Positions 3,115-10,534 of a stretch of DNA of 10,679 nucleotides are shown piece by piece; position 1 is the stretch's first letter; each line of letters begins with the position of its first letter. Below the pieces are notes generated by a model. The model saw only the letters and a program-made list of their open reading frames with translations, did no database searches and was not told where the DNA came from. The stretch spans positions 1-10,679 of the forward strand of contig CAIMDR010000448.1 of NCBI GenBank assembly GCA_903839795.1, in the 5' to 3' direction. A program made the position numbers and the translations under genes. The DNA is from an uncultured Methylococcaceae bacterium. GTDB taxonomy: Bacteria > Pseudomonadota > Gammaproteobacteria > Methylococcales > Methylomonadaceae.

Positions 3115-5442
3115 ATGTTTGAAAACCGTTTACCGCTAACCGAATTTTATATCACTGACGTTATTGATAGTTATGGCAATAACCAGCCAGTTAAATTGAC
3201 CATCAAGATACAATCACGTTGTGCCAAAATATCCGACAATCCAGATAACGATCCGACAAAAGCTAACGCATGGCGTTATATTATTGTGGGAGATACTTAT
3301 AAGTTGGGCATTGCCACTTCTGAAGATAACAATTATTTGCTCAAAACCAATATTGGCCCCATTATCAATGTTAAGCGCGGCGTACTTCTTGAGATAACAT
3401 GGGTAAATGAATTATTAAACGACGCTATGGGCGGCATGATGCCAGCGGTAGGCTTTTCCGATCCTTTACTGGAAATGCCGCCAATAAATCCCTTGCCGAT
3501 GGCTTATGCCAACGCCGAAATGCTCACCATGAATCCTTCTGTGGGCGTCGTTACCCATTTACACGGCGGTAGAGTGCCAGACGATAGCGACGGCTGGCCG
3601 CTAGAGCCGATCAGCTATCAAGACAATCCTTTTTATACCGAAACGGCTGCCGGTAATATACCGTTTGCGACCAAAAAAACCGTTACTTATCCCAACGATC
3701 AGCGCGCCACTATGCTTTGGTTTCATGATCACGGCATGGACAATACCGCGCCGCAGGTTCATGCCGGTTTAGCTGGGTTGTATTTTATCCGCGATGAATC
3801 GGATGATCAGCTGGCTACAAAGATAAATGCCTACAATACGCTTCAAAACAATTATGTAGCGAATGAGGAATTACTGGAAATCCCGTTAGTGATTCAGGAT
3901 CGAGTCGTTGATTGCGATTTTTGCTGCGTCGATTATTGGGCCGGTATTCCGACTCAGTATGACAACAGCGATCCCCAAAATCCCGTGCTTAATAAGCTGC
4001 GGCCCGAGTTTTTGGGCGATACTATTTTTGTGAACGGCAGACCTTGGCCACACCATAAGGTAACGCAAAAAGTCTACCGGCTTAGGTTGCTCAATGGTTC
4101 CAATGCCCGTACTTATGCGCTGGCTTTAATCAACCCCAGTCCTTGGACGACAACCGAAAATATCGATAAACCCACTAAAATTTGGTACAGTGATTGTTTA
4201 ACAGTGATAGGTAATGAAGCCGGTTTGTATGCAGCCAGCCAAACCCTGGGCGAACAAGATTATCTGCTGATTGCGCCAGGCGAACGCTTGGATGTGTTAT
4301 TGGATTTGACACGAATTTGTCCACATGAAACTCCAAAATTGCGGCTGGTTAATTTAGCCGTTCAATCGGTATTTAATAACGAATGGCCGGAAGCGATTTT
4401 TCAATCAGAAGCCCTATCTATTTTTTCATTGCCGACTACTCCTGCACCTACGCTACCCAGTGGGCTTATAAATCAGAATTATATCTGGCTAAACTCGTTA
4501 TTGGCTATTAAACAAGCCAATATCATGCAGTTTTGTATCGAACATATCGATTCTAACAACTGCGTGTGCAATGTCGACGATAAGCGATTAGCCGCTAACC
4601 AAGCTGAATTTAAAATTGCGCTTGATGCTTTGTTATTAACATACGATACAAAGGATACGGCTAAAAACCCCGAATTTGTTTATTCGGATGGAAAGCTTCA
4701 ATTACCAAACGGGAAAGTAGTCGATAAAAACCGCTTGGTGGTTTTGATGAATAATACCGGTACGGGTCTTGCCAATGAGTTTACAGAGAAACCGGATTGG
4801 ACTGACGCAGCCGGTAAGCATCCCGACTGGCATGATACCCAAATGTGGGAAATGGCAGAGCCGCTAGCCGATCCCGTCTATAAACCATTCAAATTGCCCT
4901 TTACTATTGACCTTCGTACGGTGGGCAATCCCGCCGCCGTTATTTTGGGCGGTTATCAGCCCTATAACGTCGCCCGCTCTACCTTTTTAGAGGCTGATGC
5001 AACACCCATTGCCAAAAATAGCCAGAGGAAATACGCCGATTTACGTCCGGCAACGATCAAACCGACAAGCGGTACTTATGAGCGTTGGTATGTCGCCAAT
5101 ATCGGCAATTGGCAACCTGGCATCAACGGTGTCGCAGGTGTACCGGATATGCATCCTTTTCATATCCATCTGGTTAATTTTGTGGTCTTGAGACGGTTTA
5201 GTTTTCGGCCAGTCGATCAAAGCAATCCGGTTGATTATCACTTTGTTGATGTTACGCCTGAACAAGCGGATTTCTACGATAAAAACATCCGCCATGATAC
5301 GGTTAGAATTAACTCAAATGAAATGGTGGAATTGCTGGTGTATTTTCCTGAAGGTTATCACGGCAAATATCCTTATCACTGCCATTTGGTTGAGCATGAG
5401 GATATGGGTATGATGCTGCACTTTGAGGTTTCCCCAGCTTAA
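3115..5442 (+). CDS. CotA/phenoxazinone synthase-like multicopper oxidase (laccase family)
   Basis: The 775-residue enzyme belongs to the three-cupredoxin-domain oxidases that couple substrate oxidation to reduction of O2 to water. All four copper-binding motifs are present: HLH (148-150) in VTHLHGGRVPDDSDGWP, HDH (204-206) in LWFHDHGMD, HPFHIH (680-685), and HCHLVEHEDMGM (755-766). The type 1 copper ligands would be Cys756, His761 and axial Met766. HLHGGRVP and AGLAGLYFIRDE are typical of the CotA, PhsA and bilirubin-oxidase branch. It has no signal peptide or Tat motif, so it is probably cytoplasmic, as CotA is before coat assembly. It is longer than CotA (about 510) and PhsA (about 640), with extra sequence around 445-610. 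Cys267, Cys270, Cys271 and Cys474, Cys483, Cys485 form two unusual clusters. The GAGGAATAGCT before the ATG sets the start. Substrate is unknown; phenolics, bilirubin-like compounds, Mn(II) or Cu(I) are all possible. Confidence 0.93.
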   Translation: MFENRLPLTEFYITDVIDSYGNNQPVKLTIKIQSRCAKISDNPDNDPTKANAWRYIIVGDTYKLGIATSEDNNYLLKTNIGPIINVKRGVLLEITWVNELLNDAMGGMMPAVGFSDPLLEMPPINPLPMAYANAEMLTMNPSVGVVTHLHGGRVPDDSDGWPLEPISYQDNPFYTETAAGNIPFATKKTVTYPNDQRATMLWFHDHGMDNTAPQVHAGLAGLYFIRDESDDQLATKINAYNTLQNNYVANEELLEIPLVIQDRVVDCDFCCVDYWAGIPTQYDNSDPQNPVLNKLRPEFLGDTIFVNGRPWPHHKVTQKVYRLRLLNGSNARTYALALINPSPWTTTENIDKPTKIWYSDCLTVIGNEAGLYAASQTLGEQDYLLIAPGERLDVLLDLTRICPHETPKLRLVNLAVQSVFNNEWPEAIFQSEALSIFSLPTTPAPTLPSGLINQNYIWLNSLLAIKQANIMQFCIEHIDSNNCVCNVDDKRLAANQAEFKIALDALLLTYDTKDTAKNPEFVYSDGKLQLPNGKVVDKNRLVVLMNNTGTGLANEFTEKPDWTDAAGKHPDWHDTQMWEMAEPLADPVYKPFKLPFTIDLRTVGNPAAVILGGYQPYNVARSTFLEADATPIAKNSQRKYADLRPATIKPTSGTYERWYVANIGNWQPGINGVAGVPDMHPFHIHLVNFVVLRRFSFRPVDQSNPVDYHFVDVTPEQADFYDKNIRHDTVRINSNEMVELLVYFPEGYHGKYPYHCHLVEHEDMGMMLHFEVSPA

Positions 5443-5976: not shown

Positions 5977-8673
5977 TCAGAAATTGAGTGTAAACGTTGC
6001 GCGTATCATTCTGGGTTCGACAGGATGTTTCATAATGCCGGTTTGCGGCGCAGTACCTGCCGGGAAGGCATATTGATAAGCATAAGAAATATCGTTGGCG
6101 GTCGAATCAAAAATATTGAATAGATCAAGCTCTAGTTTATATTTTTTTTGTTTATACCCCGCACCTAAATTGACGATGCTGGTATTCCCGGCCCAGTATA
6201 TACCGGACGAATCTAGGGGCATGTCTCCAAAATGACGTAAACGTACGGTACCGAATAAACCGTTAGGAGCTACTACCGTTGCGCCTGTGGTGATAACTCG
6301 GCCCACAGAGTTTGGGATATAATTGTTGCTTTCACCTTCCGGGATCGTTACATAACGTGCCGAAGTCATTGCAAAGTCAGCATCCAGTGTCAACCAGTCG
6401 GTAGGTTTATAATAATTAGTCCATTCAACGCCGTAGCGGTGGGATTTTCCGTTTACTTCAGTTGTCCCGGCGTCGCCCGTAAAAACCAGTTCCTGATTGC
6501 TCTCTAGCCACCATAATGCCAGAGTGCTATTTAAACCGTTTATAAAGTTGCTGCGAATGCCGGTTTCGCCACCGTGTGACTGGGCCATGGGTGAGATTTT
6601 TGCAGCATTACTGTCGAGTATATTACCGTTATTCGGATCGCGTTGTAGCGTAGTGCCTCGGGCATCGTTGGAGTGGTAACCGAAACCGCCATTGATAAAA
6701 TATTCAGTATCAAACCAGGGGCCGAAGATCAAACTTAGCTTCGGACTGACTAATGCTTGTCCCCGATTACCCGAGTTGGCCGCGTTAACACCAGGATCAT
6801 GTGTAGCCGTGTCGAGGACGGTGACATCGTTATGGATAATATCCCCTCTTAAACCAGCAATAGTCCGTACTTTTTCATGCCAAAAGGTCTGGTTTTTAAG
6901 ATATATACCCGCTGTAGTCTCACTGATATTGCTATTACTGACTGTGCTGAAATATTGCCTGTTGACTGTGTGATCTAGCCCCAAGCCCATGATTTCATCG
7001 TGACGAAGTTGAAAGCCCACGGTGTTGTCCATGTCAAAACCGAATAATTTGTGGTAGCGAGTATGTTCGATATTGCCGCCGGTCTGTACCCGATGTTCGA
7101 ACTGGTGTATCTGATCGCCGCCTGGAAAATTGATGGTATCGGTATAGCCGGTAAAGTTAGAAAATAAATTTACATCGTAATAGAGGGCATAGATATTAGC
7201 GTCATTTTTCCAGTTGTCGCCTTTGTTCCAGAGGTTGCTTGAAAAGCTGTAGCGATTGGTCTTGCCGCCATCCGTAGGATCCATGGTGCCGTACAAGTCG
7301 AGCGTACCGTTATTAACCAACGCCTGTGATATCTGGTTGGTTGCCGTCCAGTCATTGGTATAGCCTTTGCCGTTAATCGACACTCCCCAATCGTCTTTGT
7401 TAAGGGTGTAACGCAGCATACCGTTGAATTTTTTTGAATCCTCCGGCTGTTGCCAGACGCCGTTGTAGAAATTGAACTCTCCGGCATAAAGTAAATTGCC
7501 GTTACCGACTTTGTTGGAATTAGCAACCAACGTCCGGTAAAAACCGAACTCGCCTCCGGTAAACTTCAGAAAGCCTTCGGGTAATTTATTCATCGAGAAC
7601 ATTTTTGAATAACCGGCTGATGAAAAATCGCCGACTTCCGCATAATACGGCCCCTTGCCGTATTCAATATGCTCCACCAACTCGGGAATGACGCTATTGA
7701 TGTCCATATAGCCCTGTCCGTGAGCATGAGTAGGCATGTTCATCGGTATGCCATCGACATAAGTGGTAAAGTCGGTGCCGTGATCGAGATTAAAACCGCG
7801 TAAGAAATATTGATTAGCCTTACCTGAGCCGCTGTGTTGAGTGGCTACTGCGCCTGGAACCACTTCAACCAACTCACCATTACGGGAAAGTGGTCGATAT
7901 TCAAATTGTGCCTGACTGACTTCGCCCTGCGATGCTGATCCTGTCATGCCTATAAGATCTTTTCCTCGCCCGTCTTCAGTCACGACCATTTCCTCTAATT
8001 CTACGGTCGTATTTTTGCTGGTTTTCGATTTGGCTTTTACTGTGGTTTCAGTAGTTTCGGTGGGTGGAACTTCTATTTCTTGGGCATTAACGTTGCCCCC
8101 AAGAAAAAAGCTAAAAGTGAGTGCCAGGAAACGTAGGGTTGCTATACCCGCGCAATGTAATAGTAAGGTGGCAAATACAAATCCCAGAGTGTAAGAAATT
8201 AAACTCGTTGAAGCCGATATTTCAAGACCATGCGCATAGCCATGAAAAAAAGCAAAGAAGGCAACGATCAGGACATTTATTCGGGTAGTGAATTGTACTT
8301 TTTGGATAATGAATGCACTAAATACCAAGCCGGATAGCAAAATCATGATTTCCGCATTTGGAACACAAAAGCTTGCGGCGCCAGTAAGACCGCCAAGAGT
8401 CATGACGCTGACAAACGTGATTGGCAACATCCAAATGGCCTGCCCACGCAACTGAGCCGCCCATATTCCCACTGCAATCATGGTTAGAAGATGATCCCAA
8501 CCTTGCAGAGGATGCTCAAAACCATTGTCCCAATCCCTGCTGGCAAGAGCATCTGTTGGAATTTTAATAAATGACAAAGAGAGCAGCGACAGTAAGCCCA
8601 AGCAAAATAGAGTTTTTTGCAGATTAAACCCGAAAAAAATCAATTTATTATTTTTGTTTAGCATGGAGTTCAC
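5977..8673 (-). CDS. Fusion of a HupE/UreJ-type metal permease with a TonB-dependent receptor
   Basis: The 898-residue frame has two parts. Residues 1-197 start with a signal peptide (probable cut after DALA, Ala44), then HPLQGWDHLL (His54, Asp60, His61), further membrane helices, and HGYAHGLE (144-151) and LLLHCAGI (170-177). These are HupE/UreJ nickel/cobalt permease signatures. Residues 181-197, RFLALTFSFFLGGNVNA, occupy the place of the last HupE helix but read as a signal peptide ending in NVNA before Gln198. Residues 198-898 form a complete TonB-dependent receptor: possible TonB box near 226-233 (LEEMVVTE), plug with LRGFNLDHGTDF, THAHGQGY (His316, His318) and KGPYYAEVGDFSSAG, then a beta-barrel ending in ...TLNF with the terminal Phe of outer-membrane proteins. 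The frame opens with GTG at 8673; an in-frame ATG at 8664 is the alternative, and neither has a strong ribosome site. Nickel or cobalt is the likely cargo by HupE kinship; copper or iron cannot be excluded. Confidence 0.85.
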   Translation of the reverse strand: MNSMLNKNNKLIFFGFNLQKTLFCLGLLSLLSLSFIKIPTDALASRDWDNGFEHPLQGWDHLLTMIAVGIWAAQLRGQAIWMLPITFVSVMTLGGLTGAASFCVPNAEIMILLSGLVFSAFIIQKVQFTTRINVLIVAFFAFFHGYAHGLEISASTSLISYTLGFVFATLLLHCAGIATLRFLALTFSFFLGGNVNAQEIEVPPTETTETTVKAKSKTSKNTTVELEEMVVTEDGRGKDLIGMTGSASQGEVSQAQFEYRPLSRNGELVEVVPGAVATQHSGSGKANQYFLRGFNLDHGTDFTTYVDGIPMNMPTHAHGQGYMDINSVIPELVEHIEYGKGPYYAEVGDFSSAGYSKMFSMNKLPEGFLKFTGGEFGFYRTLVANSNKVGNGNLLYAGEFNFYNGVWQQPEDSKKFNGMLRYTLNKDDWGVSINGKGYTNDWTATNQISQALVNNGTLDLYGTMDPTDGGKTNRYSFSSNLWNKGDNWKNDANIYALYYDVNLFSNFTGYTDTINFPGGDQIHQFEHRVQTGGNIEHTRYHKLFGFDMDNTVGFQLRHDEIMGLGLDHTVNRQYFSTVSNSNISETTAGIYLKNQTFWHEKVRTIAGLRGDIIHNDVTVLDTATHDPGVNAANSGNRGQALVSPKLSLIFGPWFDTEYFINGGFGYHSNDARGTTLQRDPNNGNILDSNAAKISPMAQSHGGETGIRSNFINGLNSTLALWWLESNQELVFTGDAGTTEVNGKSHRYGVEWTNYYKPTDWLTLDADFAMTSARYVTIPEGESNNYIPNSVGRVITTGATVVAPNGLFGTVRLRHFGDMPLDSSGIYWAGNTSIVNLGAGYKQKKYKLELDLFNIFDSTANDISYAYQYAFPAGTAPQTGIMKHPVEPRMIRATFTLNF

Positions 8674-8683
8674 AAATAAAATG

Positions 8684-8700
8684 AAATGATTGTATCATTT
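8684..8700 (-). promoter_or_regulatory. Palindromic operator candidate overlapping an extended -10 element
   Basis: On the minus strand the sequence AAATGAT ACA ATCATTT is a perfect 7-bp inverted repeat with a 3-base spacer, ending 11 bases before the fusion gene's start. It contains TGATACAAT (8689-8697), which matches the extended -10 consensus TGnTATAAT at eight of nine positions (n free). A repressor bound here would block RNA polymerase. The ATGAT/ATCAT half-sites recall Fur-family boxes, but this is not a full Fur consensus. A second, imperfect palindrome lies just upstream at 8703-8721. Confidence 0.4.
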
Positions 8701-9093: not shown

Positions 9094-9885
9094 TCATGCC
9101 TTGTTAATCACTTCATCCTTCAATACATCGAAGGCGTTAAAGGCAATGTTTAGGCTGAGTTTCAGGTTAATAATGCTGGCGATGGTGGTACTGGTAAAAA
9201 TACAGATCATAATGGCGATTTGATATTTCACGGCTAACCACGGTTCACTGCCACCCAGAATTTGACCGGTCATCATGCCGGGTAAAGAGACCAGCCCCAT
9301 AGTTCCCATGCTGGCGATGGTCGGATTAATGGCCGCTTTGATGGCCTCCCGAAAATAGGGCTGCACCGCCTCCCAACGGGTCGCGCCCAGCATTAAAAAA
9401 GTCGCATATTCATTCTCGTTTTTGCGGAGTGCCGAATAAAAACGCTCCAGTGCAATAACGTTGCCTTGCAGACAATTGCCCAGAATCATCCCGGCCAATG
9501 GCACAATATAGCGGGCATCGTAAAAGTGGGTCGGCTGAATGACCAGAATCACCAAGTAGGCGGTGGAGAATAATATGCTGGAGGCAATCGCGGTAAAGGT
9601 GGCTAACGCAAAATAACGCGCTTTAAGTCCGGCACGTTTTAGAATGGTTATATCCGCGACTATCAACATCACCAATATCCATAAGCCGTTTAGCCAGGGA
9701 TTGTTAAGCGTAAACAGTGTCTTGAGATAAATGCCCACCAGCGCCAACTGGAGGCTCATGCGTAGCAGGCTGATGCCTATATCCCGGCTTAAGCGCAGAC
9801 CGATAAGCCAAAGCAGTATCCACGGCAGCACACAAAGGCCGTAAAGCAGCGCCATTTGTGGCAGCCCGATATCAAGTGTTTCCAT
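9094..9885 (-). CDS. fetB: FetB-like ABC transporter permease (UPF0014 family)
   Basis: The 263-residue polytopic inner-membrane protein has hydrophobic segments spread along the whole chain. It carries the family's best-conserved signatures: LAGMILGN (130-137), LGATRWEAVQPYFREAIKAA (166-185), a likely coupling region facing the ATPase, and GLVSLPGMMTGQILGG (197-212), nearly diagnostic for the family. In E. coli, FetA and FetB (YbbL and YbbM) form an ABC exporter linked to iron efflux and resistance to oxidative stress; the plant relatives STAR1/STAR2 act in aluminium tolerance. The start at 9885 lies 14 bases inside fetA, and a GAGGT ribosome site (9894-9898) sits within the fetA coding sequence, consistent with translational coupling. 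Length and motifs are normal for the family. Iron is inferred from E. coli. Confidence 0.92.
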   Translation of the reverse strand: METLDIGLPQMALLYGLCVLPWILLWLIGLRLSRDIGISLLRMSLQLALVGIYLKTLFTLNNPWLNGLWILVMLIVADITILKRAGLKARYFALATFTAIASSILFSTAYLVILVIQPTHFYDARYIVPLAGMILGNCLQGNVIALERFYSALRKNENEYATFLMLGATRWEAVQPYFREAIKAAINPTIASMGTMGLVSLPGMMTGQILGGSEPWLAVKYQIAIMICIFTSTTIASIINLKLSLNIAFNAFDVLKDEVINKA

Positions 9886-10534
9886 GTCGCTTTACCTCAG
9901 TCAAGCGCCCCGCCTCAAGTGTAAAAATAATATCACTGCGTTCCAGCCATTCAGGGTCATGAGCGACTGAAAGCACCGTCAACTGAGGATCCGAGAAAAC
10001 ATCGAACACGGCTTGTTTGCTTTGGGTATCCAGTGCGCTGGTGACTTCGTCCAGCAGATACAACGTTTTACCCAGTAACAGACCGCGTGCCAGCGCAATC
10101 CGCTGTTTTTCACCGCCGGAAATACGGCTGCTTTCCTGGTTTAAAATACTGACTGGCAGTTGCAGGCGCTGTAACACGTCAAGCAGTTGCGCTTTTGTGG
10201 GTTGATGCTCACGATGTGCCTTAAATTGAAAAGGCAAAAGCAGCGCGTCTCGCACCTTTTCGGCACCCAACATGGGTTCTTGTCCAATGTAAGCGGTACA
10301 GCTTCGAATAGTCTGAATCGATGTCGGCGTTAACGGCATTTCCTTAAAGTAAACGCTGCCGGTTTGTAACGGATGCAGTCCCAACAAGGTTCTTAAGACA
10401 CTGCTTTTGCCGGAACCGGATTTGCCGCATAACACCGCTTTTTCACCGGGAAAAAGCGCAAAGCTGATATCGGATAGAAGAACTTTTTCGTGGGCAATAA
10501 CCGATACTTGATCGAAACGAATGATAGGTGACAT
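9872..10534 (-). CDS. fetA: FetA-like ABC transporter ATP-binding protein
   Basis: The 220-residue cytoplasmic ATPase is the expected partner of the FetB permease encoded immediately downstream. All ABC motifs are present: Walker A GKSGSGKS (37-44), Q-loop Gln85 in YIGQEP, signature ISGGEKQRIALARG (138-151), Walker B LYLLDE (158-163) with catalytic Glu163, D-loop SALD and switch His192 in SVAHDPEW. The compact length and pairing with a UPF0014 permease point to FetA (YbbL) rather than a lipoprotein-release or phosphonate ATPase. The ATG at 10534 has no strong ribosome site before it, but the MSPIIRFDQVSV N-terminus fits the family. The gene is probably first in a two-gene operon with fetB. 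Confidence 0.92.
   Translation of the reverse strand: MSPIIRFDQVSVIAHEKVLLSDISFALFPGEKAVLCGKSGSGKSSVLRTLLGLHPLQTGSVYFKEMPLTPTSIQTIRSCTAYIGQEPMLGAEKVRDALLLPFQFKAHREHQPTKAQLLDVLQRLQLPVSILNQESSRISGGEKQRIALARGLLLGKTLYLLDEVTSALDTQSKQAVFDVFSDPQLTVLSVAHDPEWLERSDIIFTLEAGRLTEVKRHGNT

Follow-up and report, generated by a model that had tools for sequence, protein, structure and literature searches.

How can a single polypeptide serve two membranes? On the reverse strand of a 10,679-nt contig from an uncultured Methylococcaceae bacterium (the whole of which is hereafter called the window), a HupE/UreJ permease of the inner membrane is followed in frame by a TonB-dependent receptor (TBDR) of the outer membrane (Table 1). 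Here we consider whether this fusion is genuine, how its two halves might reach their membranes and where it came from.

One reading frame for two membrane proteins

The open reading frame at 5977-8673 contains no internal stop codon and places a HupE_UreJ domain and a complete TonB-dependent receptor on one chain. The original prediction of a single unbroken frame joining a HupE-like part to a full TonB receptor is thereby borne out by both the frame and Pfam, in which HupE_UreJ (PF04955) matches residues 49-184 with 142.6 bits (cut-off 23) and the plug domain matches with 50.5 bits (cut-off 23.9). The more likely start is the ATG at 8664, which gives 895 aa and coincides with the start of the database cluster P0001. 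The inverted repeat just upstream is a possible operator, perhaps for a metal regulator; no repeat of this type is listed at the 19 other gene starts displayed.

A full-length search for the same two-domain architecture returned 19 near-full-length relatives carrying both domains at 69-85% identity (P0002-P0020), of which P0006 sits on a 422 kb contig. Loss of a stop codon or a frameshift at the junction, the artefact which the first description had wished to see checked, is refuted by the recurrence of the same single open frame across many genera. The fusion as originally observed is confirmed: it is real and it is conserved.

Table 1. Features of the fusion gene and its upstream region (window coordinates).
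Feature	Residues	Position	Strand	Remarks
Inverted repeat AAATGAT-ACA-ATCATTT		8684..8700	.	perfect; just upstream of the start codon
hupE-TBDR fusion gene		5977..8673	-	one open frame, 898 aa from GTG 8673
N-terminal signal peptide or signal anchor	18-42	8548..8622	-	hydrophobic segment 21-39, helix 18-35
HupE/UreJ permease core, TM1-TM5	46-178	8140..8538	-	PF04955, 1.2e-41
Sixth hydrophobic segment, proposed internal signal peptide	179-197	8083..8139	-	signal-peptide-like form
Polar linker, predicted cut to receptor	198-224	8002..8082	-	low model confidence
LEEMVVTE	226-233	7975..7998	-	read from the sequence
TBDR plug domain	251-354	7612..7923	-	PF07715, 3.3e-13
TBDR beta-barrel	354-898	5980..7614	-	final residue Phe

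The permease half possesses the hallmarks of its family. HPLQGWDH (residues 54-61), in the first helix, corresponds to the HPxxGxDH signature, and FHGYAH also lies within the core. In an alignment of the window protein with 51 of the 95 fused database proteins described below (alignment A2, which also underlies the structural model and the charge and conservation counts), H54, D60, H61, W81, E108, H144, H148 and E151 are identical in 52/52 sequences, a set that covers every His, Asp and Glu of the HPxxGxDH and FHGxAHGxE motifs. Of the remaining three of the 11 HupE positions displayed, two are kept in 51/52 sequences and one is variable. Between the window and locus L083, dN/dS is about 0.10 for HupE and 0.06 for the receptor, with 0.16 for the sixth segment and 0.27 for the linker; on this codon comparison purifying selection acts on both halves. 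Conservation is lowest in the linker (dN 0.47 versus 0.09 in HupE, for the same pair). AlphaFold2 predicts helices at residues 18-35, 59-74, 82-99, 107-123, 130-152 and 158-190, after which the TBDR barrel runs to residue 898. TM5 and the sixth segment are drawn as one helix (158-190), and confidence is low throughout the HupE part (35-72 in ten-residue blocks between residues 41 and 190); as modelled, this part is too uncertain for judging the permease pore.

The receptor half has the large beta-barrel fold of TonB-dependent receptors, and LEEMVVTE resembles a TonB box and is a candidate for one. The C-terminal aromatic signal for BAM is present in the window, and among 30 fused genes the last residue is F in 23, Y in 5 and I in 2. 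The receptor scores only 22.8 bits against the BtuB equivalog TIGR01779 (cut-off 599.7). By sequence, its nearest solved counterparts are PqqU/YncD and BtuB. PqqU/YncD also takes the first Foldseek rank, yet many TBDRs are near ties by Z, and the fold ranks name no substrate.

The junction resembles an internal signal peptide

The original prediction counted five HupE helices and held the sixth to be missing. This needs amending: a sixth hydrophobic stretch is present at residues 179-197, although it does not seem to have the form of a normal last HupE helix. The HupE_UreJ profile match of the window ends at position 158 of 179. The segment ends ...LALTFSFFLGGNVNA/QE (the slash marks the predicted cut), with the cut after A197 (A197/Q198, nucleotides 8083/8082), a residue invariant in A2. 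Downstream of the conserved TM5 end (LLHxxGI), the fused proteins read, for example, ATLRFLALTFSFFLGGNVNA/QEIE. In general, a single Arg or Lys leads into some 12 hydrophobic residues, which a Gly/Ser/Asn-rich break separates from V/A-x-A, often followed by QE.

Across the 95 fused proteins, with the cleavage site picked by a score of our own and an anchor pattern wide enough to take all of them, position -1 is Ala in 95/95 and position -3 is V in 51, A in 36, I in 5, S in 2 and L in 1 (Val or Ala in 87/95), while Gln occupies +1 in 77/95 and Glu +2 in 72/95. The distance from anchor to cut is 26 residues in 91/95, and a single Arg/Lys precedes the hydrophobic segment in 91/95. The strict motif (A/V-x-A) is accordingly present in 87/95 fused database proteins; in the fused frames of named loci it is found in 23/32, and a site by the looser score in 29/32. 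By composition the strict motif also occurs within the same search range in 9/30 stand-alone HupE proteins, in some of which the anchor pattern was placed about 12 residues too early. In these control proteins a loop and a normal last helix follow, and the chain stops 38-57 residues past the anchor in 29 of the 30 and at 25 in one.

Charge distribution speaks to orientation. In the 52 aligned fused proteins the mean number of Arg/Lys in successive segments is 2.21, 0.23, 1.13, 0.08, 3.08, 0 and 0.94, an alternation which matches the positive-inside rule and therefore places the receptor in the periplasm. The pattern fits an N-terminus inside, a first segment leading out, TM1-TM5 ending in the cytoplasm and the signal-like segment leading out again. 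Judged from sequence, segment 179-197 appears to have both the orientation and the form of a cleavable signal peptide, its cleavage being a prediction. The earlier argument that an intact fusion would need processing agrees with this signal-peptide-like junction and its constant Ala at -1.

Distribution of the fusion

When residues 1-200 were scored alone among long proteins, 145 matches were obtained, 120 of them listed. Classification of 218 collected proteins yielded 95 fused forms (among them the cluster of the window itself and a few incomplete sequences), 25 HupE proteins without TBDR and 98 TBDRs without HupE. In the 85 rows displayed, identity to the window ranges from 53 to 100% in HupE and from 39 to 100% in the receptor. 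By manual count among the matches listed, a fused frame is found in at least 27 of 311 genomes of the order, spread over 10 genera; these 27 include one with an internal TAA (G102) and one that matches only in part (G144). A scan of one genome per species, for which the best 79 of 225 named loci were kept, gave 79 HupE frames in 76 named loci: 32 are fused, 27 (one of them, L116, upstream of a fused gene) have a TBDR as the following gene and 20 (L153 being cut by a contig end) do not. Fused and unfused forms thus both exist, and close relatives do not all carry two genes, the arrangement that would have spoken against the fusion.

Fused genes occur in records named Methyloglobulus, Methylobacter, Methylomicrobium, Methylotuvimicrobium, Methylicorpusculum and several Nitrosomonas, with one more in a gammaproteobacterium of no named order (L155). 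Named isolates with the fusion include Methyloglobulus morosus KoM1, Methylotuvimicrobium buryatense 5G and Nitrosomonas oligotropha Nm45 and Nm75. In a sample of the class, HupE is found in 99/369 genomes among the matches listed, and the frames of at least 800 aa listed there belong to G000 and G217, both of the window's family, and to G511. The last was rejected as a fusion, being an ordinary HupE behind a chance open frame. No fusion outside the window's family was found among the listed frames of at least 800 aa in these 369 genomes, a thin sample per order. A frame of 514 aa is listed for G522 in the same sample. Tandem HupE-HupE proteins of about 500 aa in one frame were also encountered (P0121, P0122, P0123 and P0126), as were neighbouring HupE frames (L097 and L113).

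Unfused relatives and the origin of the fusion

Many unfused relatives have hupE immediately before the receptor gene, with both genes on one strand. Eight such pairs are separated by 3-46 bases or overlap by 4-32, as computed with starts at the longest open frame. Unfused HupE proteins mostly have the same signal-like end: the strict motif is present in 19/26 of those with a receptor gene and in 11/16 of those without. Beyond this segment they carry a tail (such loci are L030, L033-L041, L103, L107 and L116-L161); most of the tails read have a length of about 200-300 residues. We searched these tails for remnants of a decayed receptor and rejected that idea, no convincing match being obtained in any forward frame (best E 0.010). 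A motif of the type (S/T)(N/S)GVGxTSPP, often in the form FPDINxTPGxxLLSNGVGLTSPP, occurs in 27/41 of the tails and is conserved as protein (pS 0.59, pN 0.19; 15 sequences). The tail might be released as a peptide or might regulate the adjoining receptor gene.

Phylogenetic tests were applied to each half. The HupE tree drew on 18 further database proteins, two of which (P0181 and P0186) failed the pattern. For the receptor tree, 26 of the 95 fused database proteins were combined with 13 selected loci in which no intact hupE precedes the receptor; L089, L096, L105 and L115 were skipped on length or pattern, and the unfused HupE of L116 was left out because it precedes a fused gene. For the HupE half, with the long-branched L141 and the truncated L153 removed, neither a single clade of all fused rows (p-AU 0.734) nor one of all unfused rows (p-AU 0.771) is rejected. 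A quick HupE tree had suggested that the fusion is ancestral and was later split; since neither topology is rejected, that reading was withdrawn. For the receptor half, in contrast, the test rejects placing the fused rows in one clade (p-AU 3.07e-05), and there are two deep receptor clades with fused members in both. As the fused receptor halves do not form one clade, receptors have probably been exchanged. The best reading of these trees is that the HupE-signal cassette is probably one lineage behind which receptors were exchanged, with repeated fusion or splitting as the alternative.

A proposed polyprotein for two membranes

We consider it quite likely that the gene encodes a polyprotein, in which the last helix would act as the export signal of the receptor and would be cut by signal peptidase, giving permease and receptor in a 1:1 ratio. 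The N-terminal signal would start insertion and TM1-TM5 would integrate into the inner membrane, after which the chain would be on the cytoplasmic side, an order suggested by the charge bias and by knowledge of the family. The sixth segment, with its single Arg ahead, would then insert N-in/C-out and the receptor would be pulled through Sec; signal peptidase I would cut after A-x-A or V-x-A, in the window at A197/Q198. The HupE permease would stay in the inner membrane and the released receptor would be put into the outer membrane by BAM. There, receptor and TonB would bring a metal or metal chelate to the periplasm, from which HupE would move the metal to the cytoplasm, and one translation would provide both halves of one uptake route in a fixed ratio. 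A periplasmic start for the receptor is indicated by the charge pattern and is the location required for reaching the outer membrane.

That two products arise from internal translation initiation at the junction, without proteolysis, seems very unlikely. A Met does stand at the start of the signal segment in a few relatives, such as P0009 and P0119. In the window, however, no ATG, GTG or TTG occurs among the 34 junction codons scanned, and an internal start was rejected there; over 33 fused genes the junction start codons vary in place, and an SD-like 4-mer precedes one in only 1/33. With no usable internal start, and with an uncut chain having to span the periplasm, we infer that cleavage is the simplest route. 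An uncut chain could nonetheless be imagined to bridge both membranes and to pass metal straight from receptor to permease, an arrangement consistent with the single frame, with purifying selection on both halves and with the predicted status of the cleavage. Its stretch 198-250 (53 residues) could span about 18 nm when fully extended, but given the width of the periplasm this is at the limit, and the near-universal signal-peptidase-like site and the poor conservation of the linker both argue against a bridge, which we regard as unlikely.

Another reading takes HupE to be a degenerate, over-long leader, with the receptor alone being of importance. L165 has an internal deletion in its HupE half, yet a hydrophobic stretch ending NVNA/QE and the intact receptor remain in frame, and there are unfused receptors with signal-like N-terminal starts of their own. 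The invariance of the HupE-motif His, Asp and Glu in all 52 fused proteins and a dN/dS near 0.1 in HupE are hard to reconcile with degeneration and make this a quite improbable explanation. As to an assembly or sequencing error that removed a stop codon, the genome of the window is a fragmented draft of 748 contigs, but the same fusion is present in independent genomes, including those of the KoM1, 5G, Nm45 and Nm75 isolates; the artefact is hardly credible and was rejected. Returning to the polyprotein and joining it with the phylogeny, we think it on balance probable that one segment closes the permease and then acts as the signal of the receptor, the cassette serving as a launch platform for exchanged receptors.

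Substrate and gene neighbourhood

The substrate of receptor and permease is presumably a transition metal or metal complex. Cobalamin riboswitches precede unfused close relatives of the window's receptor (L009, L011, L012, L013, L016, L017 and L028), the second, more distant receptor of L046 and the fused gene of Candidatus Methylobacter oryzae KRF1 (L046 and L092 being the same record). This 5842 bp record contains a tandem of the fused gene and an unfused receptor, both preceded by a cobalamin riboswitch of their own, and a partial third riboswitch at the contig end. At the other 21/23 fused loci scanned, some of which are one record under two ids, no cobalamin riboswitch was found, and the window has none at gathering score.

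Other neighbours point to copper. Thioredoxin-like and BNR-repeat proteins follow in 11/33 fused loci (records named Methyloglobulus, Methylomagnum and Nitrosomonas) and a CopC protein is present in 9/33. In the two loci searched with Pfam, L085 and L104, CopC and BNR_2 are above cut-off in both, thioredoxin exceeds it in L104 but falls short in L085, and the BNR proteins of both contain a CSCC motif. A gene of one family lies close to 14/25 unfused pairs, HupE_UreJ_2 being recognized in the two members tested. Copper and cobalt/corrinoid are the leading candidates for the window, both supported in relatives; PQQ is a possible substrate as well. We also considered a link to copper monooxygenase, which was rejected: PF02461 is present in 6/8 genomes and absent from G000 (83% complete) and from the genome of L155.

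Within the window, a FetA/FetB-like ABC pair (UPF0014; 9094-10534, with a 14-base overlap) lies upstream on the same strand, scoring far below the FetAB equivalog cut-offs. A 775-aa multicopper oxidase with a PhsA-like match (3115-5442) is convergent to the fusion gene, and a 523-aa transglutaminase-like protein is encoded at 258-1829. In P0010, P0187 and similar fused relatives, cleavage of the first signal peptide would leave an N-terminal His (VQA/HTGS or VHA/HTGS), as in the His1 metal proteins of PMC12537917; the window protein is without it.

Comparison with known systems

To our knowledge, no polypeptide has been described with one part residing in the inner membrane and another in the outer membrane. 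The open-access literature searched, which excludes most subscription papers, contained no inner-membrane permease and outer-membrane receptor on one polypeptide, in agreement with the original prediction, which knew of no described case; nor did the literature searched yield a usable precedent for internal signal peptides. Automatic database names already give both parts for some members (P0131, P0141, P0152 and P0191), so that the architecture is visible in databases but apparently undiscussed. In FbcH, the cytochrome b/c1 polyprotein of Bradyrhizobium, an inner-membrane protein likewise precedes a second protein that bears a signal, and signal peptidase separates the two; both of its products stay in the inner membrane, whereas the second product of the window belongs in the outer membrane.

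If its cleavage is confirmed, the fusion would be a natural polyprotein serving both Gram-negative membranes and would show a route from transmembrane helix to signal peptide. It ties together two membrane steps of metal uptake in methane oxidizers and ammonia oxidizers, two groups whose key enzymes depend on copper. With its fixed ratio and exchanged receptors, the permease-receptor link lends itself to direct testing in strains that bear the fusion, such as M. buryatense 5G and N. oligotropha.

The Rhizobium and Synechocystis HupE proteins (PF04955) share with the window the HPxxGxDH signature and TM1-TM5. HupE/UreJ members are known or predicted to take up Ni/Co, some under B12 riboswitches, according to PMC7689651, PMC4284471 and PMC2667541. 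Compared with these permeases, the last helix of the window appears to be replaced by a signal-peptide-like segment, behind which a whole outer-membrane receptor follows. Unlike PqqU/YncD, BtuB and OprC, to which it is only 13-16% identical, the receptor of the window has no N-terminal signal peptide of its own, and the end of the permease is proposed to provide its export signal. The same pairing of outer-membrane receptor and inner-membrane Ni/Co permease exists in the riboswitch-linked cobalt locus of Novosphingobium, where a separate TBDR gene stands beside a gene for a permease of the NiCoT type, in contrast to the one polypeptide of the window (PMC7689651). Ang-1 and Ang-2, the 'anglerases' described in 2025, resemble the window in having an extra periplasmic metal domain fused to a HupE-type permease; theirs is a soluble metal-binding domain at the N-terminus of HupE/UreJ_2, whereas in the window an outer-membrane receptor is attached to the C-terminus of HupE/UreJ (PMC12537917).
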